From: Phoronis pallida
Lineage: Eukaryota; Phoronida; Phoronidae
DNA length: 27,425 nt
Reading direction: 5' to 3'
Assembly (NCBI GenBank): GCA_028565715.1
Contig: JAOXYC010202017.1
Location: 1-27,425 of the forward strand
Shown here: piece by piece, positions 8,301 to 27,036 of the stretch
Numbering within the stretch: position 1 is the stretch's first letter
Layout: each line of letters begins with the position of its first letter
The notes under the pieces: generated by a model
What the model saw: the letters and a program-made list of their open reading frames with translations, nothing else
Told to the model about the DNA's origin: nothing
Databases searched by the model: none
Translations under genes and position numbers: made by a program

Positions 8301-11300
8301 AAATTATGTTTATTGTTTTTAACGTAGATTTGACCTTTTGTTGAATGTTTATTTCCTTAAAAATATGTAAGCAGGAATTAACTTGCATTAATTTAGTAGA
8401 TAATGTTCAAATTTCAGTACAAATTTGAATATTTTGTCTGAATTTATTTTGTAAGATGGCTACAAAACTGTCAGTACATTTTTAGACCAAAGAACGTACA
8501 TATTTCGACCATTTACCTCTCAATTGATAATGTGAAGTGCATGGTTACACGCCATTGTCATTGAAATAAAGGAAACATCTTGTGTGTAGAATTATACAAA
8601 TGAGGGTTAGTTATATGTGGGTAAATAATTTATTTTGTTTTGTCTCTACAGGTCTCCGTCTGAAGGAAACAAGTGATCAGCTGCAGTTCAACAGGAACAT
8701 TGAAGATGTTGAGATCTGGTTTAATGAGGTTGAGGGCGCACTTATGTCTGAAGACTTTGGCAAGGTAGGCTTCTTGTTTCATGATAGGTTTGGTCAGTTA
8801 CACCTGTTTATCTACAGTTTTTTCCAATAATAAAGTCTTCGCATTTGAACTGTTAATTTTGAATTAAAAAATCTGTGCCAATTGATATGAATTGCCTTCT
8901 ACTAATATGTCAAAGAACTACTGACAATAACGTGACTGATCACGACTGAAAATATTTCATAAAAGAATCTGCAAAAATTTGTATTAAAAGACCTTTGCAT
9001 ACTATAGGTTAAAATATTGTATGCTTTGTTGTGAGCTGCGCATTACTTTTCTAAAATAAGATATCATTTCATTCAATGTTTAAATTCATCAGATGGTTAG
9101 TGGTGTGAGTAAAATACATTATGTCATTGAAATAATTTGATATTTTTATTGCTTTGGCATGATATTTGCTCTCACATTATGTCGAAGTAGATACATACAC
9201 TAAAATACACTTTAATTTATATTTAGTAGGCTGTTTAATGAAATAGGCTTCACTTAATCACTCAGTCTGACAATGGTCACTTTTTTATTGTTTTGATTAA
9301 CAAAAAATGTAGATTTGTGTTGATCAGTAGCATCAGATCAGATATAAAAAATATCATTTGACAAACAATGCAGAAATCTAAGTTTAAACTCACCTTTTTG
9401 CTTTGCATGGTTTTATTCAATAGCATTGATTTTCATAGAGTAAACTAGTCACTAGTTATGAATTGTTATAGGCATTTGTGATCATAGCATAACTTTGCAA
9501 GTACTTTACATCTGATATCAGGGAAATCTACTTCAATTCGAGGCAAAGTAAAAGTAAAAGCAAAATGGATATCAATTTAAGAAAATGCGCAGAATTTGTT
9601 ATGTATAATTTCTCCAACTAATTGCATGTAACAATAATTGTTTTGTTGAAATGTTGAAAAAAGTAATGATTCTGCTTTTTTCAGGACTTGACTAGCGTAC
9701 AGAACCTGCAGAAAAAACATGGACTCCTTGAGTCTGACGTGGGTGCTCACCAAGATCGTGTGGACGCCATTGTTGCCCAAACGGAACAGTTCGTTGAGAG
9801 TCAGCATTTTGACGTGGACAACATTGTTGATAAGAAGGGCCAGGTTGTTGAACGTTATGAAGCATTGAGTGTAAGTTTCTTTTTACTAATAAATGTATGC
9901 TTTTATTGGTCAAATTGGATAAATATGGAAAAGACAGAAATCCCAGATCAGTTCCAAATTTTTCTTTGTGAACTCATTTCACTGGGTAAAAAAATTGATA
10001 TGAAAATTGATAATGATTTGAATGTTGATCTGTTTTCAATGGCCAACAACTAAACTATCTTTTATAAAGTTGTGTCATCATCAATGTAATGACAATTTAA
10101 TGTTGAGAACAACTTATAAACTCCTTTGAAAATGAAAGAATTAGAAAAAGTCAAAGATTTCTGTATTTACACAACTCTTGAAAACAAGTAATACTGGAAG
10201 TACCAAATACCATCAAAGAATCCTATCTATTTTGATGTAATATTGCATGACATTTAGACGTTTAAATTTCAGTTAATAAAACTAAGAATATTGATGATAA
10301 AAAATTAATATTTCTAGGATCCCATGGCTGCTCGCAAGAACAAGTTAGCTGATGCACTCAAACTTCAACAGTTCTTCCGTGACGTTGAAGATGAAGAAGA
10401 CTGGATCCGCGAAAAGGAGCCAATTGCTGCCTCTACCAACAGAGGGCGTGATCTGATCGGTGTCCAAAACCTGATGAAGAAACATCGCGCTCTTCTTGCA
10501 GAGTTGAACGGCCACGAGTCTCGCATCAACGCTGTTGTTGATGAGGGCCAGGAGATGTTGAAAGATGACCATTTCGCTTCTGATGAAATTAAACAGAAGA
10601 ATGATGAACTGGCTGAGAAATGGAAACAACTTGTCGTAAGTGTATCTTTGATTTTCAGAAAGAAATCTTGGTTGCATTCAATGTTTTACAAGATGGAGCC
10701 ATGACGGTGAATTTCGTGTGTAACCTCTTTGAACACTCTAAGCTAGCATTGTTTTTGCAAGGTTTTCAAAAAATAAGTCATTCACAAGTTTTCATGTACC
10801 TGGTATTGTTGCCAGTCTATTCAAAAAATGGTAGACAGGGATATTAAAGAAAATCTCAGTTCCTGATTAATGTGAAATATTACGAAAAAACGGTGTTGTT
10901 TCTGAAGTTTATCAAAGTGTATCTGACGAAAGAAAAATCTAAAAAATAAAAATTTCAACTATTATAGGAGAAAGCCAACCAGCGCACGGAGGACCTTGAG
11001 GACTCTCTGCAGGCCCACCAGTACTTTGCTGATGCCAACGAGTCAGAATCCTGGATGAAAGAGAAGGTACCGGTGGTCAGTAGCAAGGATTATGGTAAGG
11101 ACGAGGATTCCGCCGAGGCCCTACTCAAGAAACATCAAGCTCTTATGTCCGATTTGGAGGCATACAGGAGCAGCATCGATGGACTGAGAGACCAAGCCCA
11201 GGCTTGCAGAGTAAGTAGAGATTTGTTTTATATTTTTATTATGAAACCTTTACTTTAGTTATTTATTACATTGAAAATGTGTGATAAAAAAGTGTTTTTG

Positions 11301-14300
11301 AATGATCTCTCAAAATTGTATGTTGGATTTATTTTATCAAAAACAAGAAAAGAAAAATGCTTTATGACTTTGAAATTATTATGTTCCATTTTTGTGGGCT
11401 TTTTTTTGATAAATACAGCTCTTTCTTACAGCTACAAGCTCTGTTAGGGCCTTCTTTCATTATGATGGTAAAATAAATTGTTTTTATTAGTTATGAGTTT
11501 TGTTGAAGTTGTTGTTCTACATGCCTATATATTTTTGTTTTGTTCTGAATTTGACTTTATTCTTGTTTTGGCCATTCAGATAAGCTATCACTGGAATCCT
11601 TAATTAATATTTCTAACGATCTTAAGTTTGTTATTTCCTCTGTTTACAGCAACAAGAAGCCCCTGTTGTTGATGATCTCGGCAAGGAATGTGTGCAAGCT
11701 CTCTATGACTACGCTGAGAAGAGTCCACGTGAAGTCTCCATGAAGAAGGGAGATGTACTCACTCTGCTCAACAGTTCAAACAAGGTTAGCATTAGAATAG
11801 ACATTTTATGTCTGGTATTTTTTTCTTGGTGATATTCTATCGGGTTAAACGGTATTTATTGAAATTTTGCATTCAATGTTTATTTTGAGACCGTTATGTA
11901 TTGAGAGCAAGATAATATGTTGTACAAAACTGTCAGAGAACACGATCTATCTCACAGAAGCAAGACGTCTGAATATAATTTTGTTTTTACATATGTTTTG
12001 GTTTTCACAAAAGATTTTTGTTGAAATAAGACTTTTCAGTCATTTAAGTTTTGTAAAATTCTAAAGAGTGCTCAACTAAATGTTTCATGCAGATTTCTTT
12101 GGATCAAATCTCCACGATCAATACTGAAATATTTCTCCCAATTCCAGGACTGGTGGAAAGTTGAAGTTGGTGACCGTCAGGGATTCGTGCCAGCTGCGTA
12201 CTTGAAGAAACTCGAGACCGGACTGTCTGCCAGCCGAGAACAACTGGCTGATGAATTCACTATCTCTGTCCGACAGAGACAGATTGAAGATCAGTAAGTA
12301 GTATTCTGATTGGTCTATGTGTAGCCATGTGACTTCTGTGTTGTCTGGTAGTGGATAATGGTGAAGTGGGAGATATTATTGAAGGCTTTGGAATCGGACG
12401 TTATCTGACAATTCTTATGAGTGCTTTAGTCATTGATCCTCTAAACAGATATAGTGTATTGAAATCCCTAGATTATCCCAATAACTGGCTACTATTTTGG
12501 TAAATTTTCTATTGAAATTCCAAAAGACGTTTAGCAGAATAAAAACACCAGAATGAAAATGTGTTGAAAACAGTCAGCATTCGTTCATCCTTTTGAGAAA
12601 ATGATACAAATAATGCTTTTGCTGGTAGAAAGAATTCAAAAAAACAACAACAACCAATTTCACAAAAAAAATGATTTTCAAACAGATATCAAGTAAACTC
12701 ATTTCTCTCCATTGTCTCCCACAGGTATGACAGTCTCATTGACATGGGTAACCAGCGTAGTAACAGACTGAGAGACAGTGCCCGAACATACGCCGTTGTA
12801 CGTGATGCGGCTGAGTTGGGAGATTGGATCGATGCTAAAGAGCAGATCGCGGTTGAGGAGGTTATTCAGGCAGAGGACCTTGAACAGGTGGAAGCTCAGC
12901 AGAAGAAGTTTGATGACTTCCAGAGGGTAAGTTTGTGTGGGGATTGTGTTGGAAATGAGGTGTGAAGAAGATTTTTGTCTTCTTGAACTCACTTGTTTTA
13001 AATAATAGCAGGATGTCATTGTAAACATGCTGTTTAGTTTCAACATTTCAAGCAGCTTAATATGAAAAAGTCAAAATGCTGTTGTCAATGATATCTATTT
13101 TGAAAGTAAGAGTAAAAAGTGATGTAAAATTAGAACAAAATGATAGAATATACTTTTGGTTTCATTTGAAGTAAGAACCAACCTTTTACTTTGTTTAAAT
13201 TTTCTTTGTCAAATGACTTACGTAAGACATATTTTATTTTAATTTTACAGGATTTGAAATCCAATGAACAACGTCTACAAGAGATGAACAACCTGGCTGA
13301 GCAGCTTGACACCATGGGTGAAACTGAGGCTGCGGATAAAATCAGAATGCAGATCACGGTACGAAATCAAACCGCTAATATCTAAAACTTTTTACAAGCT
13401 GTTAGATATAATTGTGCAATGTTAAATGATGCCAACATAAATTTTGAGATTAAGGTTTTAGTAAGTAGTGAACATATCATTCACCCAGGTTGATGAAATA
13501 TTGTAAGTTATGCTCAAAGCATATTCACTTACTGGGAGACTGAGAAATTGATTCATGTCAAACGTTTCCACCCTCCTCTATAGGTCTTGGTCACTAGCAC
13601 TGACTGCTGTTCCCGTCAGTGCTAGTGACCAAGACCCTTAGAGGAGGGTGGAAACGTTTGACATGAACCAAATTCTCAGTCTCCTAGTGAATATGTTTTG
13701 AGCATCAAAACAGGAGACAATGAACAATCTTTTTTACTATTGTAGGTAATGTTTTTTGATTTTGAAGGAATTGAGTATTAATAAAATGCTTTGAAATACA
13801 GTTGTTATTTGAACCTGTTTTGAAAGAATTCTTCTATTTTCAGACCATTAACGCCCGTTGGGAGAAACTGCAAGAGACCACACAACAACAGGCTGCTAAA
13901 CTAGCCAGCTCTCATGAAGTTCAGAGATACCACAGGTAATGATTTTCATCACATAACTTCTTGTTTTCAATCTAGTAACTTGATTCGGTAAATATCTATT
14001 GTTAGATTCTTATGTTGCATGTCCCATTCACAGTATGGGCCATGGTGTTGTGTATACTGTGGTAAAGCCAGGACATGGAAATGATTTTAATACTCAGAAA
14101 ATAAAAGTTTTCTAACATTATTAAAAAAAAAAAAATTGTTAAAGTTGACAATGTGTGAAAAAAGTATTCTCAAATTCATGGGGAGTGAAACCAAACTTTT
14201 ATTAAATTCAATTATTGAAGTTTATTCTTTAATAATGACGAGCTATAATCACCAAATCAAAACCAAAATTGAAAAATTGTATTACATTTTTCACTGGTTA

Positions 14301-17300
14301 CAGAGATGCTGATGAAACAATTGACTGGATTAATGAGAAAGACCAGGCTCTCAACACCGACAACTATGGTCAAGATCTGGCCAGTGTCCAGAGACTACAG
14401 AGGAAACATGAGGGTCTTGAGAGGGATTTGGCTGCTATTGGTGGCAAGGTATGATGAAGAATGTTCTGGTGGTAGATCATTGGAAAATGCTTTGTTTGTT
14501 ACATTGGACAGTTGAAGGGCCATTTTCATGTGTGTGATATCTAGTTGAAACATTGTTAAGAATGAAGATAATGCTCTGAATTGAAGCTCCCTTTCTCTTT
14601 TGGCATAAAAATGAAACGTTTTGGAAGTTTCAAGAAGAAATTATTGAGGACCAAAGTAATTGCAGAATTCATTCTTAGTAGTGTCAAAGGTAAACAATGG
14701 ATATTCTGTACTGAACATTTTTTTTTTAAATTGGATGGGAAACCATTGTAAAAGCCAGCCTTAAGATTGCATCCAGCAATAATTTCTAATTTCAGGTTCA
14801 ACAACTGGACGAGACAGCTATCCGTCTGACCCAGAGTCATCCAGACCAAGCTGAGGGTATCAACCAGCATCAGAATGATTTAACGGAGAAATGGAATGAT
14901 CTGACAGGCAAGGCAAACGACCGCAAGGCCAAGCTGCTGGATTCCTACGACTTCCAGAGGTTCTTGAGCGACTACAGGTAAAAATATAGAAAAGTCTAAA
15001 GACTTTTGAATTGGTTTTCTCAAAAGTTAGCAAGGCAGAATTTAAGAAAAAATATTTTCTTTTCAGGACCCTTTTCTTTAGTCAAAAGGCATACCTTAAA
15101 AATGTAGAAAAGTCATAAGACTTTGGAATTGTTTTTCTCACAATTTAGCAAAGCAGAGTTTGAGAAAAAACATTTTGCTTCTCGGGGCTTATTTCTGTAG
15201 TCATGAGACATTCCTTAACAAACGTGTTTTTGTATCAACCGATATCTATTTGGAATGCATTTTAAAATTCATTTATTTCACCGGAAACCATCTTCTCGAA
15301 TAACCAGTAAGTAAGTCACAATAATATGCGTTGCCCTACTTAGAAGTTAAACTGGACTGTTTTCTAAAAGCACATTATCCGGTGCAATGAAAGTGAAAAC
15401 TTATTGCTAGAAATTGCAAAAAGTATAAGATAAGAATGAAAAACTTCTCAGAGCTCTGTTGATAAAATCCAAATTGAAGCTGACAGGTGCTCTACATATT
15501 CATTGTAGTAAACCAACTCTAAATGCGTGCTTGTTATTTCAGAGATCTGATGTCATGGATCAGTAGCATGCAGACACTTGTATCCAGTGATGAGTTGGCC
15601 AAGGATGTCACCGGAGCTGAGGCCCTGTTGGAGAGACACCAGGTAACGCATCTGGCTTAATAAATTTCTTAGAAATATGACGACGGGACAATTATAAAGA
15701 AATCTTTATTATTTTAGGTTACCCTACATTGATTTTGATTTCATTCAAGTGAAATATGTACAGTTATGAATTGTTTCATTCACACAAGAAATTAATATGT
15801 ATCACATATTTCACTTGTACTAACTATGGGATATCTCATATAAGTACAAAGTGAAGTATGTGAAATGTGTAATTTTCTTGTGTGATTGTCAGCATTCATG
15901 ATTGTATTTATTGATGGAATTATCAATTAATTTCACTTTTCTGATTAATTTTCATTTTTTCATCACATTTCTAGTCTGGTGGCTGATGGAATGTCTTCAA
16001 TGTTGTTGCTTTCTATGTTATTTGATTTTCTAGACTTTATTACATCCAAATGATTTTTTCATAGATTTACTCTGTCATCTCAGTTTCATTATTTATTTTA
16101 AACACAAGACTTATTTCAATATTTTTTCCTAGTACTCAACTCACTGTCAATAACTTTTTTCACCTATTTTATTAACTTTCAAACTTTTCATTTGAATTTT
16201 GTTTTATTTCTACCTGGTCATTTTGTTGATATTTTGTTGGGTTCTTGCCATAAATAGGCTTACCGCACGGAAATAGACATTCATTACGGTGACGGAGATA
16301 TGGTGCCTCAGGTGCGGTAATTAATTACACGGCTTTATGCTGCATGCCGTTACTGCATGGCCAAATGTTAAAAATGTTTGTTTATTTTATGACATATTTT
16401 CCTGTAGCAAAGACAATTGAAAACCAAGAAAGCTTTTTTAAAAAGATAATCTCTCTCTGTTGGTCCCAATCTGGCATCAAATCTCAAATCAACTAGAAAT
16501 GTTGTGTACGAATCCTTTGTTGAACACAACTTACTTACATCTGAGTCCAAAAGTTCAAAAAATCTGCAAAGGGGTGAATTGAGTGCTTTTGTGTCAGATA
16601 TATTGACTTTTTATCGGATACAAAGCTCTCAAATCTTGGTTTTCACTTCAATCTGCAGGAAGATATTCTACTGAAAAATCTGTTATTTTGTAAAGTTATT
16701 CCAAAATCACCTTTTTTATTTCATGTAGTTGCCATAGTTTTAGCCAAGTTCCCAAGATGCACTGGGACTTCAGTGTAGTACATGCTTGTCTCAGACACTC
16801 TGATTGGTTGGTTGGCTTAGAAGGTTGACCAATCATTGTTGTTCTTTTATTGTACATAATGTCATCAAAAACTGTTTTGAATCGATTGTTAATTCGTTAT
16901 AAAGTGAACTTAATTGGATCATGAATAACCTGCATGGTGTGGGTTAACTCTATTTTTTTCAAGTGTGTCATAAATGGAATACATTCAAACTATGTCTTAG
17001 GGCTATCCCAGCAAAAAATGTATCCCCAGGGGGGGGAAGGCACTTTTCTTTAGACCCACCTACCACATTTTTTAATTAATTTTTCTTTTATACTTGTTAT
17101 TCAACAACTTTTGTATTACTGAAGATATATTGCCGTTATATACCAACTTTTATACTTATATATATTTTTTAAGAAAATACCCACCTACCCATATTAATTA
17201 ATTAAACAACCTCCCCCCAAGGATACCTTTTTTGCAGGAATAGCCCTTAGCAAATTCTAAATGAAACAAATATTGCTGTGCGCTAAGCCAAGGGATGGTT

Positions 17301-20300
17301 TTCAAGTGATGGGTTGCCAAATCCTACTGCACACACACTTTCCAACTTGCCGCAATTCAACACACATCTATGCAATAAGGTCCAGAAAACTTAAAACTCA
17401 TCCTCTGTATTTCTGCCTCTTACACAATTCTGTGCAATTATATACTCTGAATAATTTGCTTCTTTTTAGTTTTGACAACTTTTCTGTTATAAATTCATTT
17501 AAAAGACAAAATAAATTTGGTAGGTCTACAGCCATCCACAACATGCAACAATCAGAATTCAGTGAATAACCAATGAACAGCGCATTTAATCTTAATTGTT
17601 TCTTAACCAATCGAAAAAAACATGCATGGTCAGGTTTGCTTGGAGTTCAGTGTGTTATTTTCAATCATTGCATGAAGTAGAAATGATGTTTTATGGTTTC
17701 CCTTCCTGAATTCTTGTTTTGGTCATATTATCTTTTAGATGATTTGATCCAGTCCTTGGAGAAACCATCTGTTCTTATTATATAGCTTTAATCAAGACAT
17801 TATTTAAATAATGAAAATAAATTTACTTGAGTTCATTACCGTATGTTTTGTATAACACTGCACCAAGTTATCAATGTCTGGTCAACTAACATAGCATTGT
17901 GGCTTTTCCTAGATTTAGAGCTAATATTCAAATAATATTTTATATTCTCCACTAAGCATAAGCAGGCATCACCAAACAGCAACTATCTGACCTATCGTCA
18001 CTTTTCTCGTAAATTATCCTCTTTCGAAACAATATTTAGATTCTTGATTCTCTAATAAATTGAATCTTTTCATTTCATTAATTGCAACCTTCAAATGCCC
18101 TCATTTTTATCTGGACCCCATTATCCTGACATTTAATTCTGCATTGGGGGGTTCAATTGATACCAAAAATTGGGGACAAGAACTGTATTCCAAAAGTTGA
18201 GTTTTTAAACGATTTTAATCACTTAGTCCTCACTTACCTTTTTTGCTGTTCTAAATCTCTATTTTGCACTCAGCAGTATTATCCTCTATGAGCAGCACTC
18301 TCCTGGTCTGAATAACTCACACAAAGGCAGAAATAAGGATTCCATAGATAAATATTATTCCAAATCTTTTTCATATTTGAAGTCGACGTTCAAACCGGAA
18401 CATTATCGTTTTTATTTAAAACTGAGCCTAGGGGTGAGGCAGACCTTTGAAGAACAAGAGATCAAATAGATGTTTGGCTTTGTTGTCAGGATTAGTAATT
18501 AATAAGGGGTTTGTTATTCTGGGTGGTGTTTTCCAAACTGATACGAGTTCTCTAAAAATAATCTTTAAGTTTGCCGCATAAATTGGACAATTCAAGTACA
18601 AAAAATAGTAGTTAATTTTTTTCTGTTACCGTTTCCAGGAGCATCGTACAGAGATTGATGCCAGAGCTGGAACTTTCCAAGCATTTGAAATGTTTGGTAA
18701 CCAACTCCTTCAGAACAGTCATTATGCGTCCGATGATGTCAAAGAAAAGTTGGATGACTTGGCCCAGGCTAGAGAGGAGCTTGAGAAGTAAGCATATTCT
18801 GTTTTGTATTATTCTAGAAACAATTCTTCTGACATGCGTCATCTTTGAACGATCAAATTTGCAAATTACAGTAATATGTTTTTTTCCATATTGGTTTTAA
18901 GAACAAAAATGAAAAAAATATTGTTGGCATTTAAACTTTTTCAGTTTCTGTTCTAAAATTTTCGGTGTGTTGTTCTCTATCAATTGTAGAATATCAGAGA
19001 AGAATTAAGCTTTGATAGGTATTCCTATTTAGTTTTTTGTAGAAAATGAATTAAGTTGATAAATTTAATGAGATTTATATCATTTAATAGAAATTTATAG
19101 CTGTTATTCAGTCTAAGTTTTGTTATTTTAGGGACTGGATAGGTCGTCGCATGAAACTTGACCAGAATCTTGAGCTTCAGCTGTTCAACCGTGACAGCGA
19201 GCAGGCCGAGAACTGGATGGAGACACGTGAGACGTCCCTCGCCGGAGGAGATGCCGTTGATGGCGATAGTGTGGATAACATGATCAAGAGACACGAGGAC
19301 TTTGACAGGGCCATCAATGCTCAGGTAGATTTGTGATCAAGGATTTTCTATACCTAATCAGAAAAGGTGCACAGCGCCGCTCATGGGGTAAAACATATAC
19401 TGGCTATAATGCTATTATGCGTTAAATATCAGACAGAATTAGGAGTAGCTGGGTAGCTTAGAGGTAGAGCACCATAACCGGCTATTGTGGGGACCTTGGT
19501 TCGATTCCCAGTTCAGTTACGATGATTTTTTCTGTCTTTTCAAATTAATCAAAACATGGTACATAATTACTTTTGCCATGTTTGATGTTCATGATCATCA
19601 AGAATTCCAAGAACAATTTATGAAGTTTTTTCTCTAATAAGATTTTTTTAGTACTTTGATTACAGTACTGTCAAAGCCTCCAACTTCTTAGTCACTCTAG
19701 GTATTTCTACAGAATAAGCCAATAGAGTGGCTAGCTGTGTGTTCATGTTTTTAAGCTTCTAGTATTTAGTTGTGCCAGCCATTTTGTTGGTAGTGAAGGA
19801 AACATTCATTTCTGGTTGTATGCAAAAAAATGTTATGAATGTTTTTTATTCAGTAAATGAAAAAGTTTAAATTTACCAAAATCATCAATTATATGATTGA
19901 TTTCAACTCAAAATTGAAATTAGTTTGGGAACTACACTGTCTTATGATATGTTTCTCTATTTTAACACATCAAATTTTCTAATTTTAGGAGGAAAAGATT
20001 GTTGCACTAGAACAGTTCGCTGATCAACTATGTGCCGCTGATCATTATGACGCTCCTGCTATTTCTGACAAGAAAGACCAAGTCCTGGATAGGTATGAAG
20101 TAAAAATGTGGTGTCAAGTTTATGGAAAGAATTTAATTGGTTCAACAGAAACTTTTGTAGTTAGAACTTAATATTGCCCTGTTGGGTCTATTTGCAGGGA
20201 TCCTTGTACCTTACTCCCTATTTGACTAAATTTCAAAATTCTTAAATCTATGCGATCACCACTTCAGTGGTGCAGTTGATTATAAGATTAGTTAAGATCT

Positions 20301-23300
20301 CTTGAAAGTATGGTAAGTTTTTAAAAAAAGCTGCCAAAAACTCTTACAATGTTACTTCACAAAACAACTCGAGCAATAGTCAATTATTCAAAAATTATTT
20401 TTAAAAAAATGAATTTTTATTACCAACGTAATCTTCCAATTGCCCAACAGGTGGAGCAACTTGAAGACAGCTCTTATTGAGAACCGCTCCAAGCTTGGCG
20501 AGGCACAGACTCTACAACAGTTTGTGCGTGAAGCTGAAGACATCGAGGTATGGATGTCCGAGAAGATGCAGGTGGCCCTCGACGAGTCTTACAAAGATCC
20601 AACCAACATTCAAGCTAAGCACCAGAAACATCAAGCATTCGAGGCAGAACTCAAGGCCAACGAGGATCGCCTGAACCAAGTTATCAACACTGGAAATAGT
20701 AAGTGTTTCAATCTCATGGCCAACTCTCTCTGTTCACCTAAATTATTTGACATTAATTAATTTTCTTTATTTCTTTGTTTTCAAAATAAAAGGCTCGTGG
20801 TAAAACTTCCATGATTTTGGACAGCTGGATGGCAACACACATTTAATTTCTCTAAAAACATTTTTCCATAAAAATTTGGCTTCACTTTGAGCAAATCCTG
20901 TTGACACTCTATTACCATGTTTAACAAATTTTACACGAGACCTCTCAAAGTGGCTTGGATTCGTTAAGCAAAAATGTGTCCAAAATAGAAGTTTTATCCT
21001 AATCCTACTTTCTTGCGTAATACCTTAAAACATTTTCCCAAATTTTATTCTTTATATCAAATCTTGCTTTATTTAATTTCTGGATGGTCATAGGACTGTT
21101 AATATCTTATTTTGAGTGGTGCTATATAATTTGATCCCCAGCCGCTGAGAATTTGTAACATATAGCTTTAGCAAACCCTGTAACGCAGTTAAACTCCATA
21201 GCTGGTGCTGGCTAGGAAAATTAAAAATGGACTGATGAAAGGAACTCAATGTCCAACCATACTTATGCTTGGGTGTGACATTTTACAGGAATGACAACAG
21301 GCGAAGGTGATTCTAAATCACACATAGAAGTGTCTAATAGCATGACTGTTTCAAATGAATTTGGTCATGTTAGATATAAACAATTCAGTGTTCTGTTGAA
21401 CGGTATTCTGTTTTAATGTACCGTACTATGGTTGAACTTTAAAAGCTACCAAAAAGCCAGTGGTCTTTGATATGAAAAATTTTTCCTAGGAAAAAATACT
21501 TACAAATTGGGGATTGACTGTGATACAAGCATGTTGTCTTACCCAGTTGATTTGGTTAATCATTGTTTTGTTTTGTTGGACACTGACAGCAAATAAAAGC
21601 ATGCAAATGTTCTACTTGATGCTCGTCTTGTTCAAAATTTTGTTTTTTAAACAAAACATGTTCGTGGACATTTTATGTCCACACAATGTTTGAGGTTTAC
21701 CTGTATGCTCATAAAAAGTTGGTCATAATGAAAAATTGAGTTTCCTGTTTGCATTGCATTGAATGTTCTGTTGAGAGCTGAGTGATGAAATGCACAAATA
21801 ACAACACATCACAACTTTGCAGTTGAATGCAAGCTTATGTCCCTGCTAGGCCTATATGAATGTTTGTATTTGAATGTCCACTTTGGAATGACAAGCACAT
21901 ACATTTTGTCAAATATTTTCATTTGGTAGCCAGTCCTGGGATTTCCAAACTGAACTACTCGCACTTGATTCTCGAAAGTTGCGTTGCAAATCAACTCAAA
22001 GTGAGTGACGCAGTTGATCATAGACAATTGAATGAAGTAAAGTTTGGGAATCTTAGGTACAGGGTGTGATTATTTTCGAATTTGTTAGTGGTTTTGAAGG
22101 CACGCATGAATGTGAGCCAAGTTGAAGTCTGTGCAAAATTGGTAATGGATTTTTCTATGAATTTGGTTTCAAATAGTGAACTCATGTATAGAATTAAAAC
22201 AAGACATTGATTCTTATTTTCTTAATATAGATGGCAACAAATGACATATTTCATCATTTCAATTTTACATGTCTTGCTTTAACTGCATGCATGCATGTTC
22301 TACAATTTATCATAACACTCTGATCCTTAATTCTCCAGCACTAACTGAGAACAACCAGTGTGCTGGCTCAGAGGACATAGTCAAGGAACGCGTCGCAAAC
22401 CTCTCGCAGCAATGGGATTACCTCATCACTCTGTCGACCGAGAAGAGCCTCAAGTTGAAGGAAGCCAATCGCCAGCAGACGTTCAACGCCGGGGTCAAGG
22501 ACATTGAGTTTTGGCTCGGTGAGGTGGAGCATCTACTATCATCTGATGATTATGGAAAAGATTTGGCATCTGTGCAGAATCTTCTAAAGAAACATCAACT
22601 TCTTGAGGCTGACATTTCAGCACATGATGTAAGTGAAACTTTAATCCTGATGATGATGAAAGTTGTTAAAGAAACATCTTCTGTTTTTTTTCTATTACAG
22701 CACATATTGAATTTGCTGAAGTCATGAAGTGATATAAAAATGAAAATTAAAAATAGACCAAATGAAGTTAGATAATGGCGTCCCTTTAAAAAATTTGAAT
22801 CCTGATAATGGAGAAAGTTGGTCTGAACTAATGCCATTTCATACTTCCTTTCCTTTGGAAGAGGCCATAAACTAAGAATAATATAAAGACCATATGGATA
22901 ATTGTGTTTAAAATTTATGTTTGCTTAAAACATAAGTGAGTAAATTTGACATTTACTAAAATTTATCAGAAAATTGAATTTATATAAGAAATGAATCAAT
23001 ATGATTTCTCAGTATATCACAATAAGTGATCCCCTTAGTTATTGAGGTTTAATGTAATGTAATGTAAGATAATAAAACGTTATCAAAACGCAATGGAATA
23101 ATGCTCTCTCATGTTCACATATTTTAAAATTGTTGTTAATATTCTAGGATCGCATCAGAGACCTGACCAACACTGCCAATGAGTTCATTGAGGCCGAAGT
23201 GTGGGATGCTGAGGCTCTTGCTGCCAAGAGAGATTCCATCAACGAACGTTATGAAAAGTGAGTCAACATTTTGACTTGTCAAGTTGAGAAATATCAAATC

Positions 23301-26300
23301 ATAGCCAAGTCTTGTTTTTGTCTTCACCTTAAAGTTTGGATCATGAATTTGGAAGTCCATTTTAATGTTAAATATGTTTTAGAATTTTAAAATGATAAAT
23401 GTTCATTAATTTATAGGTTGTGTTCGTGATATCATTGAACATAAATAACAATTTCCTCAGTTGAGGGAATTAGGTCACGTGATGTAACCAAATAGTTGCT
23501 TGAACAGATTCATAATTATTTATAATTTAATCATAATATTCATTAAATTTTTTGAGAAATTCTCTCAAACTTTGGGTAGTTACAGTCTTCCAATCCCAAA
23601 AACAATTTTCTTCTGGACATTATTTAGTGTGTCTGCCCAAAATATATATTTTCATATGGAACATATTATTCAGCTTAAAATTCTCAACAAAATGAACCAT
23701 TTCATTTTGCCATACCTTCCATGCACATGCTCTACATTTATCGACTCCTATTTACAGTGTCAAAGATCTGGCCAATCAGCGACGAGACCGTCTCAATGAG
23801 GCACACACTCTTCACACCTTCTTCCGGGACGTTGATGATGAAGAGGCTTGGATCCGTGAGAAGAAACTTCTCGTTGGCTCCGATGATTATGGACGTGACT
23901 TGACTGGTGTTCAGAATCTTCGCAAGAAGCACAAGCGCCTGGAGGCGGAGCTTAACAGTCACGAGCCTACAGTGCAGGTTAGTATTAGGGCATTTCCTAA
24001 ACATTTAAGGAAAGGAAAAGGTCCCATCCCATGGAGTTGTAATTTGCAAATTTTCCACTAGCTTTCTGTGTCTTGTCACTCAGTAGCACATTTTCAACAT
24101 AGTTTTATCAGAAAGAAAATTATTTTCTAAGTGATTGGCAATTTATGATTATTGTAGCATTAAGCGGCCTTTTTGAATCAACAGCATCATTTATAATTTC
24201 AAAATATGATTGAACACAATCACTTGTGAATGCTGTATAATTTTGCATGTCACATTTGAGAGCGAGACACTAAAATGATTTCCTTAAACTGTAGATTCAT
24301 GGTATTCGATTTGTAAGTAAAAATCGTCATCAAACACCTAGCTTAGGTTTTTATTTAAAACAATTTTTGTTGTGTTTTCACACGCTGTTTCACAAGTCAC
24401 AGATTGAATTTCTTTACCATTCGAAACTAACTCATTTCCACACTTTCAGCTTTGTTTGTTGTTGTTGTTGCCCTTTGACCTTTGCCATTTGACCTCTATT
24501 CCTAGCATGTTTCCGTTTTGAGAAGTACTGTTATATTTCTTGTTAGAAGTGGAAACAAAAAACTCACAGAAAAAGAAAAATCAATTTTTGACAGTTAACT
24601 TTTCTTTGCTATCAATTGATATTTTCAAAAGTGTTTGAAAAAAAATTCTCTTTTCGAAAATCGAGTTGAAACCTCAAAGTATTTTTACCGACGCATGGTC
24701 CACTTTCCCTTGTCATTGCTGCTGACCTTGACCCATGAACATTGAACTATGAACTTGGTTTCCCCAGTGTTTGTTGTACTTTTCCCATCCAGTTGAATGT
24801 TAGAATATTGGCATGAACCCTGACCTATAAACCCTGACCTCTGAACCCTATCATTCCCCCAATGTTTGTATTATCCCCCCTGGTTGAATGTTACAGTATG
24901 TTGATGGAATATTGCATTTACTGGAATCGAGGGAACGATTAGTAAGTACAGCTCAGAATATGCTCTTTCCATTGACTTCAATGAGCAGACTTATTGCAAG
25001 ATTGCTGTTTTTAAGCCTCTTTTCGCAATAATGAAAAAAGCTTTGTTCCAAAGCTGCATCCATTATTGTGAAATTTCATGTTAAACTCAAACAACATGTT
25101 GAGGGTCTGGTGAAGTTATTTGAAGTCAGAATAAAATGACCCAAATCTCATTCTTCAACTTGCGTCAATGGATGTAACATTTACATTTGCTTCATGCAAT
25201 TTCACTAGATCGACCATCAACGTGTTTTGAGTTTTCAAAAATAAGAAAATCTGGCCAAAAATAAGTCTTGTGAAGTCAATGGAGTTTATTTGCCATTCTG
25301 GATGCTTACTGGTTATTGGTAGGTTTCTAAACCTAAATCATTGCATAGTTGCTAGATAAAATTACTATGCATGGGAAAAGGGAAATTGACGGTTTTGACT
25401 TGGTTTTGTATCACAAACTTGTTTCTCCAAAACGACCAGTTTCTGATGTTTTTCCAAATGAATTTTAATATGAAATGTTTTCAGATTAGTTTCTGAACTG
25501 GCACGATCAGTAGTAAATCAAATTGTTTAAACTTACCAAAAGAAAAAGACTGATACAAAACAATGTCACACTTCATATATGCTGTTTTAGGAAGTTTTGT
25601 AAAACAGTTTCTGCTCTGGATTGTTCAGAAATATATGATTTATTATTTTAATGAAACAGAGGGTTTGTTTAAAAAAAATGCCAAATGCTTTTGTAAACAA
25701 CTGTCTAGGTTATGGTACTCAACATTTTAGAAAAGCTACTTTTAGGCCCTTGTCAACTTTGCTAAAAGCTGTTATAAATATAAATGGTTGAATATGAGGA
25801 CTGAAGCCAGTCTATTTTCATTATTTTTGGTTGAAACATGGCAATGTTTTGTTATAAGGCAAAGGCAATGTTTCGTTATAAGGCAAGGGATGCCATTATT
25901 TGCTGAGCTTTTTTAATTCAATTTTCTGGTATGAAAATATGAATAAAAGGCTGCTAGCCCTTGTCATGTTATATTAGTTGAGGTTTTGGGTGTCTGTCAT
26001 AAAACGAGTTAAACAAATGTTGACAGCAGAACAAAGTTTATGATTTCACTGTTCCCACGTATACCACAACTTCAACTTTTCACAAGTAAAACTGAAGTTT
26101 ATCAGTTATTCCCTTCACTCCCAACTTTTTTCAAAAACACAGTAGAAAAATCACCATATTCATTGGTACAAAACTGCCATCTATATGTTGACCTGAAAAC
26201 TAATTTTGCGTTTTACCCCATAAAGGGTGTACAAGACCAGGGTGCCCAACTCATGGCCGAGTCCTCCCTCGGGGCTGACGATATCAAGGCCCGCCTCGAC

Positions 26301-27036
26301 CAACTCAACGATAGCTGGCTGGAGCTGAACACCTTAGCTGCCAGACGAGGACAGAAGCTGGATGAGTCACTAGCCTATCAACAGTTTGCAGCGAATATTG
26401 AAGAGGAGGAATCGTGGATCGCTGAAAAACAACATCTGTTGTCGGGAGAGGATTACGGCGATACTCTAGCTGCTGTTCAGGTTGGGACATTTATGAAGTA
26501 TTTTTGAATTTCAAAAATTAAATTAAATGGGAACAAATTAGATTAAATCTTGGAAGTAGACTATCATGTTGATATTTTTTTTAATTCAAACACAGTATTC
26601 ATTTTTTATGGACCATCTAAAAGCAAAACATTAGGTAAACTATTGAATAATTTATAAATCACTGAAATTATAAAAAGTTATATTTAACAACTTCTTTTAA
26701 AATGGTGTGATCCCAAAAACTTTCCATTAGTTACAGCAATGTAAACATTTAATCCAATTTTGTTTCTCTCTTAACAGGGACTCCTGAAGAAGCATGATGC
26801 TTTCGAGACTGACCTCCAAGTCCATAATGACAGATGCTCTGAAATCAAGAAGGAGGGAAATAAACTGATCGACGAGGGGAACCACAATGCCGACCAGATC
26901 GCTGCTCGCTGCGCCACCCTTCAGGAGAAGATTAGCTCCCTGGATGACTCCGCTAATCGTCGCAAGGCCCGACTTATTGATAACTCAGCCTTCCTACAGT
27001 TCATCTGGAAAACTGATGTCGTTGAGAGTTGGATTG
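2087..27036 (+). CDS. SPTAN1: alpha-spectrin, non-erythroid type; 33 coding exons, 3' end beyond window
   Basis: Alpha-spectrin pairs antiparallel with beta-spectrin and joins head to head into tetramers that crosslink actin in the membrane skeleton. Seen here: an N-terminal tetramerisation helix (residues about 10-45), triple-helical repeats with helix-A Trp every 105-108 residues, and an SH3 domain (about 972-1027: ALYDY 977-981, WW 1007-1008, GFVPAAYL 1017-1024) inserted in repeat 9. Repeats 10-17 and the start of repeat 18 follow. All 32 introns are GT-AG and phases match at every join; coding total is 5818 nt (1939 codons plus 1 nt). The start ATG has A at -3 and an in-frame TGA 9 nt upstream. 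The C-terminal EF-hands are outside the window. Introns not listed separately (300-520 bp, AT-rich) show only splice signals to my reading. The order SH3-in-repeat-9 excludes beta-spectrin and alpha-actinin. An orthologue of SPTAN1 / Drosophila alpha-Spec is near certain. Confidence 0.97.
2702..2827 (+). CDS. SPTAN1: coding exon 2: repeat 1, helices B-C
   Basis: Residues 83-124, phase 0 at both ends (acceptor TTGTAG, donor GTATGT). It carries [16 protein letters not shown] and [11 protein letters not shown], which are highly conserved in alpha-spectrins. The preceding 369-bp intron holds nothing recognisable. The following 340-bp intron contains a loose duplication of TTTGATTCTAA about 60 bp apart. 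Confidence 0.95.
3168..3308 (+). CDS. SPTAN1: coding exon 3: repeat 1/2 junction and repeat 2 helix A
   Basis: Residues 125-171, phase 0/0 (TTTTCAG to GTTAGT). It spans the continuous linker helix [16 protein letters not shown] and reaches helix A of repeat 2 (FWIRDK, Trp 167). The 474-bp intron that follows has a 14-bp perfect inverted repeat but no other feature. Confidence 0.95.
3783..3866 (+). CDS. SPTAN1: coding exon 4: repeat 2 helix A/B
   Basis: Residues 172-199, phase 0/0 (TTTTTCTAG to GTGAAT). [20 protein letters not shown] is the typical A-B loop with the conserved (D/E)-(F/Y)-G-x-D-L pattern. The exon is only 84 nt. Confidence 0.93.
4142..4246 (+). CDS. SPTAN1: coding exon 5: repeat 2 helix B/C
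   Basis: Residues 200-234, phase 0/0 (TTTTTTTAG to GTGAGT). [19 protein letters not shown] matches the helix B/C region. The 383-bp intron after it holds a purine-rich A/G tract at about 4556-4596. Confidence 0.93.
4630..4866 (+). CDS. SPTAN1: coding exon 6: repeat 2/3 junction and repeat 3 helices A-B
   Basis: Residues 235-313, phase 0/0 (TTTGCAG to GTGTGT). It has the linker Trp 240 ([10 protein letters not shown]), helix A with [13 protein letters not shown] (Trp 273) and [20 protein letters not shown]. It is closely paralogous to exon 22 (repeat 11), evidence of old internal duplication of a multi-repeat block. Confidence 0.96.
5151..5267 (+). CDS. SPTAN1: coding exon 7: repeat 3 helix C
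   Basis: Residues 314-352, phase 0/0 (TTTTCTCAG to GTATGC). [20 protein letters not shown] and the linker Trp in ENNWEGL are typical. It is paralogous to the first half of exon 23. Confidence 0.94.
5648..5821 (+). CDS. SPTAN1: coding exon 8: repeat 4 helices A-B
   Basis: Residues 353-410, phase 0/0 (TTTTGCAG to GTTAGT). It has [14 protein letters not shown] (Trp 379), [20 protein letters not shown] and ends EHK. It is paralogous to exons 23-24 (repeat 12), but the intron here falls three codons later (after EHK rather than after RHQ). Confidence 0.96.
6337..6576 (+). CDS. SPTAN1: coding exon 9: repeat 4 helix C and repeat 5 helix A
   Basis: Residues 411-490, phase 0/0 (CACAACAG to GTAAAC). 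It opens with GEIDARED, the paralogue of TEIDARA in exon 25, and ends in AWMSKQE (Trp 485). The 497-bp intron after it contains a SINE copy on the minus strand. Confidence 0.96.
6687..6782 (-). mobile_element. tRNA-derived SINE copy (minus strand)
   Basis: Read on the minus strand, AAGCTTAGATGG (6762-6773) matches a pol III box A and GGGTTCGATTCCC (6719-6731) is a full box B inside a perfect 5-bp T stem (CTGGG/CCCAG). The tail CAGTTTTGAATTTTTCCGTC follows. A related copy lies at 19441-19541 with the same head order and a similar tail. Ends are approximate and no clear target duplication was found. It is not a working tRNA, since no good acceptor stem forms. Confidence 0.7.
7074..7184 (+). CDS. 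SPTAN1: coding exon 10: repeat 5 helix B
   Basis: Residues 491-527, phase 0/0 (TTTTGTAG to GTAATT). [20 protein letters not shown] is a classic A-B loop. The exon ends AAQEEKIR. The 394-bp intron after it shows nothing but AT-rich sequence. Confidence 0.95.
7579..7812 (+). CDS. SPTAN1: coding exon 11: repeat 5 helix C and repeat 6 helix A
   Basis: Residues 528-605, phase 0/0 (AATTTCAG to GTATGC). It runs from [20 protein letters not shown] through helix [15 protein letters not shown] (Trp 591) to ADESYM. The last codon ATG abuts the donor. Confidence 0.95.
8074..8278 (+). CDS. SPTAN1: coding exon 12: repeat 6 helices B-C
   Basis: Residues 606-673 plus one base of codon 674 (acceptor AATTTCAG, donor GTAAGT, phase 1). 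[19 protein letters not shown] repeats the DPTNLQAK motif of repeat 1, and LWKQLCEM is the linker helix. Confidence 0.95.
8652..8764 (+). CDS. SPTAN1: coding exon 13: repeat 7 helix A
   Basis: Completes Ser 674 and encodes residues 675-711 (acceptor TCTCTACAG, donor GTAGGC, phase 0). [20 protein letters not shown] carries Trp 696, then SEDFGK. The 920-bp intron after it (8765-9684) is AT-rich, and I see no gene or repeat family in it. Confidence 0.95.
9685..9870 (+). CDS. SPTAN1: coding exon 14: repeat 7 helices B-C
   Basis: Residues 712-773, phase 0/0 (TTTTTTCAG to GTAAGT). [19 protein letters not shown] and the run to VVERYEALS match alpha-spectrin repeat 7. The intron after it carries a possible SINE tail fragment at about 9893-9962. 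Confidence 0.96.
10318..10635 (+). CDS. SPTAN1: coding exon 15: repeat 8
   Basis: Residues 774-879, phase 0/0 (TTTCTAG to GTAAGT). At 318 nt it is the largest exon here and encodes one full repeat period: [20 protein letters not shown] (Trp 802), then [18 protein letters not shown] and a complete helix C ending in [19 protein letters not shown] is a very conserved alpha-spectrin signature. Confidence 0.97.
10968..11210 (+). CDS. SPTAN1: coding exon 16: repeat 9 helices A-B, before the SH3
   Basis: Residues 880-960, phase 0/0 (ATTATAG to GTAAGT). [15 protein letters not shown] (Trp 908), [19 protein letters not shown] and the end DQAQACR, after which the SH3 domain interrupts repeat 9. The 439-bp intron that follows contains a candidate 36-nt cassette exon. 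Confidence 0.97.
11432..11467 (+). CDS. SPTAN1: candidate 36-nt cassette exon before the SH3 domain
   Basis: In the intron between exons 16 and 17, a strong pyrimidine tract ending CTTTCTTACAG precedes 12 open codons ([12 protein letters not shown]) followed by the donor-like GTAAAA. Length is a multiple of three and the phase is 0/0, so it could be included between ACR and QQEAPVV without disturbing the frame. The donor is only moderate and I do not recognise the peptide, so this may be chance. Confidence 0.3.
11650..11784 (+). CDS. SPTAN1: coding exon 17: SH3 domain, first part
   Basis: Residues 961-1005, phase 0/0 (TGTTTACAG to GTTAGC). The SH3 fold starts at about [11 protein letters not shown] (971-981), with the RT loop [14 protein letters not shown] and [14 protein letters not shown] carries the aromatic residues that bind proline-rich partners. 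The intron cuts the SH3 just before its WW pair. Confidence 0.97.
12148..12293 (+). CDS. SPTAN1: coding exon 18: SH3 domain, second part, back into repeat 9
   Basis: Residues 1006-1053 plus two bases of Gln 1054 (acceptor ATTCCAG, donor GTAAGT). [19 protein letters not shown] completes the SH3 (W1007, W1008, P1020, Y1023). The helix C of repeat 9 resumes with [11 protein letters not shown] and ends IEDQ. Vertebrate alphaII-spectrin places its 20-residue SH3i insert exactly at this exon end; no matching exon is visible here. Confidence 0.97.
12725..12926 (+). CDS. SPTAN1: coding exon 19: repeat 10 helices A-B
   Basis: Completes Gln 1054 and encodes residues 1055-1121 (acceptor CTCCCACAG, donor GTAAGT, phase 0). 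[20 protein letters not shown] carries Trp 1088, 180 residues after the repeat 9 Trp, as expected for one repeat plus the SH3 insertion. [14 protein letters not shown] is the helix B. Confidence 0.95.
13251..13358 (+). CDS. SPTAN1: coding exon 20: repeat 10 helix C
   Basis: Residues 1122-1157, phase 0/0 (AATTTTACAG to GTACGA). [20 protein letters not shown] leads into [15 protein letters not shown]. In vertebrate alphaII-spectrin this point carries a loop with the calpain/caspase site and calmodulin-binding segment; here the chain passes straight to exon 21, so the loop is absent. The intron after it holds a long foldback. Confidence 0.95.
13511..13704. repeat. near-perfect foldback, about 90-bp arms, 10-nt loop
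   Basis: The arms at about 13511-13604 and 13615-13704 are inverted copies; the inner part, from TCATGTCAAACGTTTCCACC through GGTCTTGGTCACTAGCACTG, is almost identical, with small differences and a 3-nt indel in the outer part. The loop is 13605-13614. There is no coding capacity and no clear target duplication. It could be a young foldback/MITE element or an intronic hairpin giving small RNAs. Confidence 0.85.
13844..13935 (+). CDS. SPTAN1: coding exon 21: repeat 10/11 linker
   Basis: Residues 1158-1187 plus two bases of Arg 1188 (acceptor CTATTTTCAG, donor GTAATG). [20 protein letters not shown] is the linker helix and HEVQRYHR opens helix A of repeat 11. Confidence 0.95.
14304..14448 (+). 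CDS. SPTAN1: coding exon 22: repeat 11 helices A-B
   Basis: Completes Arg 1188 and encodes residues 1189-1236 (acceptor TGGTTACAG, donor GTATGA, phase 0). [17 protein letters not shown] has Trp 1196; [20 protein letters not shown] follows. It is the paralogue of exon 6. Confidence 0.96.
14796..14977 (+). CDS. SPTAN1: coding exon 23: repeat 11 helix C to repeat 12 helix A
   Basis: Residues 1237-1296 plus two bases of Arg 1297 (acceptor AATTTCAG, donor GTAAAA). [20 protein letters not shown], the linker LTEKWNDL and FQRFLSDYR, the start of helix A of repeat 12. Its donor sits at the start of a tandem duplication. Confidence 0.96.
14982..15217. repeat. tandem duplication, period 118 bp
   Basis: Copy 1 (14982-15099) and copy 2 (15100-15217) are similar throughout: TAGAAAAGTC, GACTTT, AATT, TTTTCTCA, TTAGCAA, GCAGA, GAAAAAA and CCTTAA all recur at a constant 118-nt offset. 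By eye identity is about 80 percent. The first copy starts a few bases after the exon 23 donor, so the donor itself was not duplicated. Confidence 0.75.
15543..15642 (+). CDS. SPTAN1: coding exon 24: repeat 12 helices A-B
   Basis: Completes Arg 1297 and encodes residues 1298-1330 (acceptor TTATTTCAG, donor GTAACG, phase 0). [20 protein letters not shown] (Trp 1302) and [10 protein letters not shown]. The next constitutive exon starts EHRTEIDAR 3.0 kb downstream, and a candidate cassette exon lies between. Confidence 0.96.
15780..15885. repeat. imperfect inverted repeat, about 42-bp arms
   Basis: The left arm 15780-15821 (TCACACAAGAAATTAATATG to CACTTGTACT) pairs with the right arm 15843-15885 (AGTACAAAGTG to TTCTTGTGTGA) with a few mismatches and 1-nt gaps, around a 21-nt spacer. 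A short related piece, CAAGTGAAATATGTAC, lies just upstream at about 15746-15761. It could be a decayed foldback element. Confidence 0.6.
16258..16311 (+). CDS. SPTAN1: candidate 54-nt cassette exon in repeat 12
   Basis: It encodes [18 protein letters not shown], 18 codons, phase 0 at both ends, between acceptor CATAAATAG and donor CAG/GTGCGG. It would sit between RHQ (exon 24) and EHRTEID (exon 25). The segment is clearly richer in GC than the surrounding intron. RTEID is repeated from the start of exon 25, yet all five codons differ at the third base, which suggests an old duplication kept by selection on the protein. Constitutive inclusion would break the 106-residue repeat spacing, so optional use is likely. 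Two TGCATG motifs follow the donor. No transcript evidence is available here. Confidence 0.6.
16341..16359 (+). promoter_or_regulatory. paired TGCATG motifs (RBFOX-type splicing enhancer candidate)
   Basis: TGCATG occurs at 16341-16346 and again at 16354-16359, about 30 and 43 nt after the donor of the candidate cassette exon. In animals, RBFOX proteins bind UGCAUG downstream of alternative exons and promote their inclusion, often in nerve and muscle. Single TGCATG words occur elsewhere in the window, so it is the pairing and position that matter. Confidence 0.45.
17000..17246. mobile_element. MITE-like element, Harbinger/Tourist-type
   Basis: Terminal inverted repeats of about 40 bp: left GGGCTATCCCAGCAAAAAAT and on through a G run, right the inverted counterpart ending TTTTGCAGGAATAGCCC. 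The element is flanked by TTA on both sides (16997-16999 and 17247-17249). A 247-bp length, no coding capacity, GGGC ends and a TTA target duplication fit non-autonomous PIF/Harbinger elements. Inside, ACCCACCTACC occurs twice as a direct repeat near the two ends. Confidence 0.7.
18639..18787 (+). CDS. SPTAN1: coding exon 25: repeat 12 helix C
   Basis: Residues 1331-1379 plus two bases of Lys 1380 (acceptor CGTTTCCAG, donor GTAAGC). [20 protein letters not shown] followed by [15 protein letters not shown] is very close to vertebrate alphaII-spectrin at the same point. Confidence 0.97.
19132..19324 (+). CDS. SPTAN1: coding exon 26: repeat 13 helices A-B
   Basis: Completes Lys 1380 and encodes residues 1381-1444 (acceptor TTATTTTAG, donor GTAGAT, phase 0). 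[19 protein letters not shown] (Trp 1408) and [20 protein letters not shown]. It is the paralogue of exons 9-10. Confidence 0.96.
19441..19541 (+). mobile_element. tRNA-derived SINE copy (plus strand)
   Basis: Box A-like TAGCTTAGAGGTAGAGC (19454-19470) and box B GGTTCGATTCC (19498-19508) lie in one tRNA-length unit that folds partly like a tRNA: a possible acceptor pairing GTAGCTG/CAGTTAC and an anticodon-arm pairing CATAA/TTGTG. Extra bases between T stem and acceptor, and C instead of T before the anticodon position, argue against a working tRNA. The T-rich tail TTTTTTCTGTCTTTTC resembles that of the minus-strand copy at 6687-6782. Confidence 0.7.
19989..20092 (+). CDS. SPTAN1: coding exon 27: repeat 13 helix C
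   Basis: Residues 1445-1478 plus two bases of Arg 1479 (acceptor AATTTTAG, donor GTATGA). [20 protein letters not shown] and [10 protein letters not shown] match the family. The preceding 664-bp intron holds the plus-strand SINE. Confidence 0.95.
20451..20698 (+). CDS. SPTAN1: coding exon 28: repeat 14
   Basis: Completes Arg 1479, encodes residues 1480-1561 and gives one base of Thr 1562 (acceptor GCCCAACAG, donor GTAAGT, phase 1). [20 protein letters not shown] (Trp 1513), [20 protein letters not shown]. The 5-residue vertebrate insert known after NIQ (LSKLL) has no counterpart: there is no intron at that point here. Confidence 0.96.
20699..22338 (+). other. 1.6-kb intron 28
   Basis: AT-rich with no supported gene. 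A weak inverted repeat (20799-20822 against 20978-20999) and a weak 18-nt frame-neutral microexon candidate (21289-21306) are the only structured items. The run TGCATGCATGCATG lies at 22284-22297, close to the exon 29 acceptor. Confidence 0.7.
22339..22628 (+). CDS. SPTAN1: coding exon 29: repeat 14 helix C and repeat 15 helices A-B
   Basis: Completes Thr 1562 and encodes residues 1563-1658 (acceptor AATTCTCCAG, donor GTAAGT, phase 0). [20 protein letters not shown], then [20 protein letters not shown] (Trp 1620), [20 protein letters not shown] and [14 protein letters not shown] and ADISAH are strongly conserved in alphaII-type spectrins. Confidence 0.97.
23148..23257 (+). CDS. SPTAN1: coding exon 30: repeat 15 helix C
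   Basis: Residues 1659-1694 plus two bases of Asn 1695 (acceptor ATATTCTAG, donor GTGAGT). [20 protein letters not shown] and [10 protein letters not shown] short TAATG tandem (about 23051-23069) lies in the intron before it. Confidence 0.95.
23758..23977 (+). CDS. SPTAN1: coding exon 31: repeat 16 helices A-B
   Basis: Completes Asn 1695 and encodes residues 1696-1768 (acceptor CTATTTACAG, donor GTTAGT, phase 0). [20 protein letters not shown] (Trp 1726), [20 protein letters not shown] and HEPTVQ. It is nearly identical to vertebrate alphaII at the same place. Confidence 0.97.
24295..24312 (+). CDS. SPTAN1: candidate 18-nt microexon in repeat 16
   Basis: ACTGTAG precedes six codons IHGIRF, followed by the consensus donor GTAAGT. 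The phase is 0/0, fitting between exon 31 (PTVQ) and exon 32 (GVQDQ). The pyrimidine tract (TTTCCTTAAACTGTAG) is fair. TGCATG lies 46 nt upstream of the exon. So short a segment can arise by chance, so this needs transcript support. Confidence 0.35.
24751..24901. repeat. two diverged copies of about 60 bp, offset about 91 bp
   Basis: Copy 1 (24751-24810) and copy 2 (24843-24901) share GAAC, CCCCA.TGTTTGT, CCC..C and TTGAATGTTA in the same order. Between them lies a short tandem of ACCCTGACCT. Only copy 2 has the TTACAG acceptor used by the candidate 45-nt exon; copy 1 reads TTAGAA. Confidence 0.55.
24897..24941 (+). CDS. SPTAN1: candidate 45-nt cassette exon in repeat 16
   Basis: The acceptor tract TATCCCCCCTGG to GTTACAG, then 15 open codons [15 protein letters not shown], then consensus donor GTAAGTAC. 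The phase is 0/0, fitting between exon 31 and exon 32. The peptide has the leucine spacing and charge of an amphipathic helix, which suits insertion into the helical rod. I do not recognise it from known spectrin inserts. Confidence 0.5.
25840..25887. repeat. 24-bp tandem repeat, two copies
   Basis: GGCAATGTTTTGTTATAAGG plus CAAA is followed directly by a second 24-bp copy differing at two positions (C for T in TTTCG, and the last base). Confidence 0.85.
26226..26480 (+). CDS. SPTAN1: coding exon 32: repeat 16 helix C and repeat 17 helix A
   Basis: Residues 1769-1853, phase 0/0 (acceptor ACCCCATAAAG, donor GTTGGG). [20 protein letters not shown], then the linker [20 protein letters not shown] and [15 protein letters not shown] (Trp 1832), ending [10 protein letters not shown]. 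The AAG acceptor is non-optimal, but the frame and the family alignment fix it. Confidence 0.95.
26778..27036 (+). CDS. SPTAN1: coding exon 33: repeat 17 helices B-C and start of repeat 18
   Basis: Residues 1854-1939 plus one base of Gly 1940 (acceptor CTCTTAACAG, donor GTAGGT, phase 1). [20 protein letters not shown], the linker [18 protein letters not shown] and VVESWI (Trp 1938). The family continues G-E-K-E, so the split Gly codon is expected. The rest of the gene is downstream of the window. Confidence 0.96.

Follow-up and report, generated by a model that had tools for sequence, protein, structure and literature searches.

The alpha-spectrin gene of Phoronis pallida contains, in all likelihood, a short conserved coding exon, most likely a cassette exon, which inserts 18 residues into repeat 12 of the protein. 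We are highly confident that this exon dates back at least to an ancestor that insects and spiralians share and that it arose by partial duplication of the start of the next exon, with inclusion that is probably promoted by an Rbfox-family protein. Judging from predicted proteins in the databases, other species carry the exon as well.

The window analysed here is a stretch of 27,425 nucleotides that stops before the 3' region of the gene, in which the C-terminal EF hands would lie. When 33 exons, whose limits we placed ourselves, were joined, they gave an open frame of 1939 codons from the 5' region of an alpha-spectrin gene. As in alpha-spectrins, the protein has tandem spectrin repeats, the ninth of which carries an SH3 domain; in the 1419-residue piece that was scanned, Pfam recognized 12 Spectrin stretches and the SH3 domain at 976-1021. 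The identity between the alpha-spectrin of Gigantopelta and the protein of this locus is 71.5%. In a tree of 21 sequences, the protein joined six gastropods with support 100/99 and was placed outside them, with the insects next to this group and the vertebrates further off; its branch is long (0.4), and the tree tool flags its placement as unsure. From this tree, the gene is probably spiralian, and its source is not vertebrate.

Another contig of the assembly (C171, 1-19642) carries a second copy of the locus that has diverged from the first; it aligned over parts of 9038-27350 and may represent the alternative haplotype of a highly polymorphic animal. Twenty annotated exons were compared between the two copies and are 93-100% alike, and 131 synonymous and 7 non-synonymous differences were counted among 1228 codons. 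The introns are mismatched at 1% to 27% of positions where aligned, with one more (44%) that is probably misaligned and some stretches that did not align. Two further elements were observed in introns of the gene: a tRNA-Ala-like sequence with anticodon GGC at 19447-19520, which could be a tRNA-derived SINE or a tRNA gene, and a MITE-like inverted repeat at 13531-13604 and 13615-13688, whose 74-nt arms are 93% complementary and separated by 10 nt.

Table 1. Features at and around the candidate exon; positions are those of the window.
Feature	Position	Strand	Remarks
Upstream exon	15543..15642	+	Ends ...ALLERHQ, phase 0
3' splice region of the candidate	16238..16257	+	Weak; ends ATAAATAG; PWM 0.41, above 2 of 32 real acceptors
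Candidate exon	16258..16311	+	54 nt, 18 codons, phase 0/0
RTEID codons in the candidate exon	16264..16278	+	Common to the next exon; all third bases differ
HYG codons	16282..16290	+	Also in insect ([HR]YG) and gastropod (HYG) inserts
5' splice site GTGCGG	16312..16317	+	Lower-middle rank among real donors (PWM 5.85, better than 10 of 33)
UGCAUG, Rbfox-type	16341..16346	+	+30 from the donor; same offset in C171
Second UGCAUG	16354..16359	+	+43 from the donor; same offset in C171
Distal UGCAUG, downstream intron	16931..16936	+	May be chance
Distal UGCAUG, downstream intron	17623..17628	+	May be chance
Distal UGCAUG, downstream intron	17669..17674	+	May be chance
Downstream exon	18639..18787	+	Starts in phase 0
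RTEID codons, downstream exon	18645..18659	+	Read from the sequence

The anatomy of the candidate is that of a cassette exon: it is bounded by AG and GT, its length is a multiple of three, its phase is symmetric, and its frame is open (Table 1). The coding sequence through the upstream exon amounts to 3990 nt, or 1330 codons; therefore, both junctions are in phase 0, and the 18 residues would be inserted after residue 1330. By tryptophan count, this point lies in repeat 12, 28 residues past its helix-A tryptophan (1302). An earlier note on this DNA had described the same open, in-frame 54-nt segment and assigned it to repeat 12, and both descriptions are borne out. It had also remarked that the base composition of the segment is unlike that of the intron, which holds: its GC content is 0.50, as compared with 0.31 in introns and 0.49 in exons, and only 1.2% of 5273 intronic 54-mers reach this value. 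As for the splice signals that the same note had counted in favour of the exon, the AG and GT are present, but their surroundings are ordinary to weak when ranked against real sites (Table 1). Moreover, at the splice thresholds of the candidate, the 19.1 kb of intron holds five open cassettes, the candidate included, two of which are nested. Since five open cassettes pass these thresholds, the splice signals alone were rejected as proof, and the same count is what one could cite for a chance open segment of intron between decoy splice sites.

The evidence that speaks against such a chance segment comes from other species. The earlier note had proposed looking for the peptide in predicted spectrins of relatives, and a search with the spliced protein gave 909 matches, of which 120, with high scorers favoured, were listed and fetched as full-length alpha-spectrins. 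Among these 120, 21 carry an insert at exactly this junction and 98 do not, namely 96 vertebrates by name, one gastropod isoform and one presumed sponge; the remaining entry, a coral protein, did not permit scoring. Considering that the 120 are weighted towards high scorers and that 789 matches lie outside them, neither count is a frequency in nature. Inserts were found in ten genera that we take to be insects (Anabrus, Periplaneta, Rhynocoris, Rhodnius, Gryllus, Thrips, Nilaparvata, Fopius, Habropoda and Lycorma) and five that we take to be gastropods (Littorina, Physella, Bradybaena, Babylonia and Plakobranchus), and all 21 inserts contain EI[DV] and [HR]YG. On the one hand, these inserts resemble that of P. 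pallida in lying at the identical junction and in sharing the two motifs. On the other hand, they are database entries only and differ in length from its 18 residues: those of insects have 14-15 residues, for example NHRAEIDAHYGVPQ, with the aligned form NHRAEIDAHYG----VPQ, and those of gastropods have 24-26 residues, with MFSSEIVSHYG followed by an acidic tail.

When its four extra residues are taken as an insertion, the P. pallida insert is identical to that of Gryllus at 10 of 14 residues (score 45). Five insect inserts were tested against it, and in every case not one of 20,000 shuffles was as good. The gastropod inserts match it at EI and HYG only, with scores of 16 for both Littorina (34 of 20,000 shuffles) and Physella (13 of 20,000). 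As controls, three of the gene's four remaining open cassettes were tried, and all three scored negative against every one of these insect and gastropod inserts. The candidate shares with the protostome repeat-12 inserts the same junction and a likeness beyond chance, and because of this conservation in insects and gastropods, we judge it very likely to be a real exon. With these matches, the negative controls and the aligned RTEID described below, a chance origin of the segment appears extremely improbable. We infer that the inserts share their ancestry, those of the other species being known from protein entries alone.

Short-protein searches extended this comparison. The HYG insert was absent from the 186 proteins fetched in them (81 matches, and 120 listed of 237), and 87 of these proteins cover the upstream side of the junction. 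Ten of the 87 seem to be read straight from LLERHQ through an intron at exactly this junction into EHRTEID, and none of the ten has the insert. The position of the intron therefore seems to be shared more widely.

Identity between the two copies of the locus was considered as a sign of selection on the exon and was rejected. The exon and its flanks are identical in C171, inside a 274-nt perfect block, but five perfect runs of this kind, 214-335 nt long and lying entirely in intron, were counted, this block among them, and 14.6% of the other intronic 54-mers (1716 of 11,793) likewise show no change. For this reason, the identity is uninformative on selection. It does bear to some degree on the idea that a once-functional exon is decaying and is no longer spliced in this species. 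Such decay would agree with the weak acceptor and with the four residues by which the insert exceeds that of Gryllus; however, the frame is open, R, EID, HYG and VPQ are kept, the junction phase is the same, the GC content is exon-like, and the exon is unchanged in C171. We consider decay very improbable.

Whether the exon is optional or always used is a separate matter. All listed isoforms of Periplaneta (four) and Anabrus (both) and all three entries of Rhodnius, among the matches listed, include the insert, as would be expected if the exon were constitutive or nearly so in P. pallida, with skipping or loss confined to other lineages. The weak acceptor, the flanking UGCAUG pair and the 98 insert-free proteins among the 120 listed, which include the gastropod isoform X2 of Gigantopelta, argue against constitutive use, which we regard as unlikely. 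Among the proteins listed, no species was represented both with and without the insert. The nearest hint of the optional use that we favour is the same isoform X2, which lacks the insert, five other gastropods having it.

In terms of origin, the insert resembles the start of the exon that follows it. RTEID occupies codons 3-7 of both the candidate and the next exon, in register, and five of five codons differ at the third base. An aligned identical run of at least five residues occurred in 29 of 2,000,000 random peptides of spectrin composition, so that the copy of RTEID with every third base changed, to which the earlier note had drawn attention, is real and beyond chance. When the inserts were compared with the start of the next exon, that of P. 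pallida was identical at 6 of 14 residues (score 19; 2 of 20,000 shuffles as good), and that of Gryllus at 8 of the first 14 (score 37; 0 of 20,000). That of Littorina, the sole gastropod insert tested, was identical at 3 of 14 (5930 of 20,000 shuffles). The in-register likeness to the adjacent exon that marks a tandem partial duplication is thus seen in P. pallida and Gryllus and not in Littorina. All three results would follow if the first part of the next exon had been duplicated before insects and spiralians split and the likeness had later been eroded in gastropods. Because both insects and gastropods carry the insert, the duplication probably predates this split, and RTEID in P. pallida would be inherited rather than freshly copied. 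The partial duplication followed by conservation that had been suggested earlier is accordingly supported, but a fresh copy arising in this species is not. Separately, a transposon origin was tried and rejected, as the 201 nt at 16180-16380 matched just two places in the 11.7-Mb assembly, which may be incomplete: this locus and C171. A scan of viral contigs found no relative.

The proximal part of the downstream intron contains two UGCAUG hexamers, at +30 and +43, which is the placement expected of an Rbfox-activated exon. At least two UGCAUG were present in 13 of 19,999 simulated 100-nt intron windows, and a Poisson estimate from the other introns gave 0.002, in a test that was chosen after the motifs had been noticed. 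None of the 32 annotated introns has two UGCAUG within 100 nt of its donor, and just one has a single copy there. In the whole window, the hexamer is mildly over-represented (27 against 18.6 expected on both strands; 4 of 100 shuffles had as many). Three overlapping UGCAUG also occur on the + strand in a (TGCA)n run at 22284-22297, which precedes the exon at 22339 and is probably a simple repeat.

According to the accessible text of PMC10514471, Rbfox bound to UGCAUG downstream of an exon activates that exon, and the accessible text of PMC8742874 describes the motif as common to fly and vertebrate Rbfox1. Considering this known activation and the motif pair near the donor, Rbfox control of the exon is plausible. 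GFPT1 exon 9 offers a parallel, being a 54-nt cassette with a downstream UGCAUG that is activated by Rbfox1/2 (PMC10514471, in the portion available); it belongs to an unrelated gene, and the analogy concerns the way of working only. The exon may instead be regulated without Rbfox, the pair being incidental. This is a substantial possibility, though one from which we lean away: the post hoc nature of the motif test and the commonness of the hexamer in this stretch are in its favour, but a pair at +30 and +43 seldom arises in simulated introns, and the same offsets are found in C171, though there the whole surrounding 274-bp block is identical.

Structure prediction was applied to two pieces from different species, both with the same 11 aligned rows, which make a shallow alignment. 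The insert-free piece of Gigantopelta was predicted with a mean pLDDT of 85.2 and with helix B at 60-79 and 81-96, and the junction (residue 71) therefore lies inside helix B. The Gryllus piece with the insert was predicted with a mean pLDDT of 64.7, and its helix B is split into 63-81 and 86-111, the insert's G-V-P-Q marking a break that the insert-free control does not show. For the insert form, the tertiary model was discarded as unreliable (TM 0.30 and rmsd 18 to 3FB2); because of this, we took from it the local break alone, as a hint that the insert breaks helix B of repeat 12. In the P. pallida form, the break would be longer than in the Gryllus model.

For the optional use of the exon, its Rbfox control, the tissue concerned and its structural and mechanical effect, we infer the following course. 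An in-frame partial duplication of about the first 14 codons of the next exon would have given rise to the exon, and an Rbfox-family protein on the two proximal UGCAUG would promote its inclusion in some tissues, offsetting the weak acceptor; by analogy, these tissues may be nerve or muscle. On inclusion, helix B of repeat 12 would receive 18 extra residues: AYRTEID could continue the helix in a sequence close to the native one, the following ten residues would break it, and EHRTEID would restart it. The outcome may be a kinked or looped-out repeat 12 that is softer or has a new binding face. A bolder version, which we offer tentatively and consider rather doubtful as a whole, is that the exon is a splice switch inherited from an ancestor that insects shared with molluscs or their relatives and absent from or lost in vertebrates, created by a duplication of the first two heptads of the next exon and run by Rbfox in nerve or muscle, where it would break helix B of repeat 12 and so provide one soft or partner-binding joint in the rod.

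Small inserts are known in vertebrate alpha-II spectrin. The earlier note had placed them elsewhere than at this junction, and rightly so: the fetched proteins show three kinds, none at the repeat-12 junction, and among the matches listed 0 of 96 vertebrate proteins have an insert there. One fetched alpha-II protein shows inserts of 5 and 21 residues, which we take to be the 5-aa insert and the 21-aa insert named 'cardi+'; these are likewise small alpha-spectrin inserts, but they lie at other positions of the protein and bear no sequence likeness by eye. The SH3i insert (20 aa, repeat 9) is also a short, in-frame, alternatively spliced insert in an alpha-spectrin repeat and, according to the accessible text of PMC3751641, raises the binding of alpha-II spectrin to Mena and VASP; it differs from the repeat-12 insert in repeat and in sequence. 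The spectrin inserts discussed in the accessible parts of PMC6521328 and PMC3751641 are vertebrate only and located elsewhere in the protein. In the spectrin literature, judged by titles and abstract openings and with subscription journals mostly uncovered, we found no account of a repeat-12 exon. The earlier description of the exon as undescribed accordingly stands for this literature but not for the databases, and because database predictions contain the insert, the exon is not unseen.

From these comparisons, the splice inserts of alpha-spectrin would gain one with an unexpectedly deep history. If borne out, which RNA-seq of insects and molluscs can test, the exon would illustrate cleanly how a partially duplicated exon can become a regulated insert. 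Spectrin repeats are usually regarded as interchangeable units of the rod. Retention of an exon at a single junction ever since insects and spiralians diverged would imply that this place in repeat 12 has a particular function.
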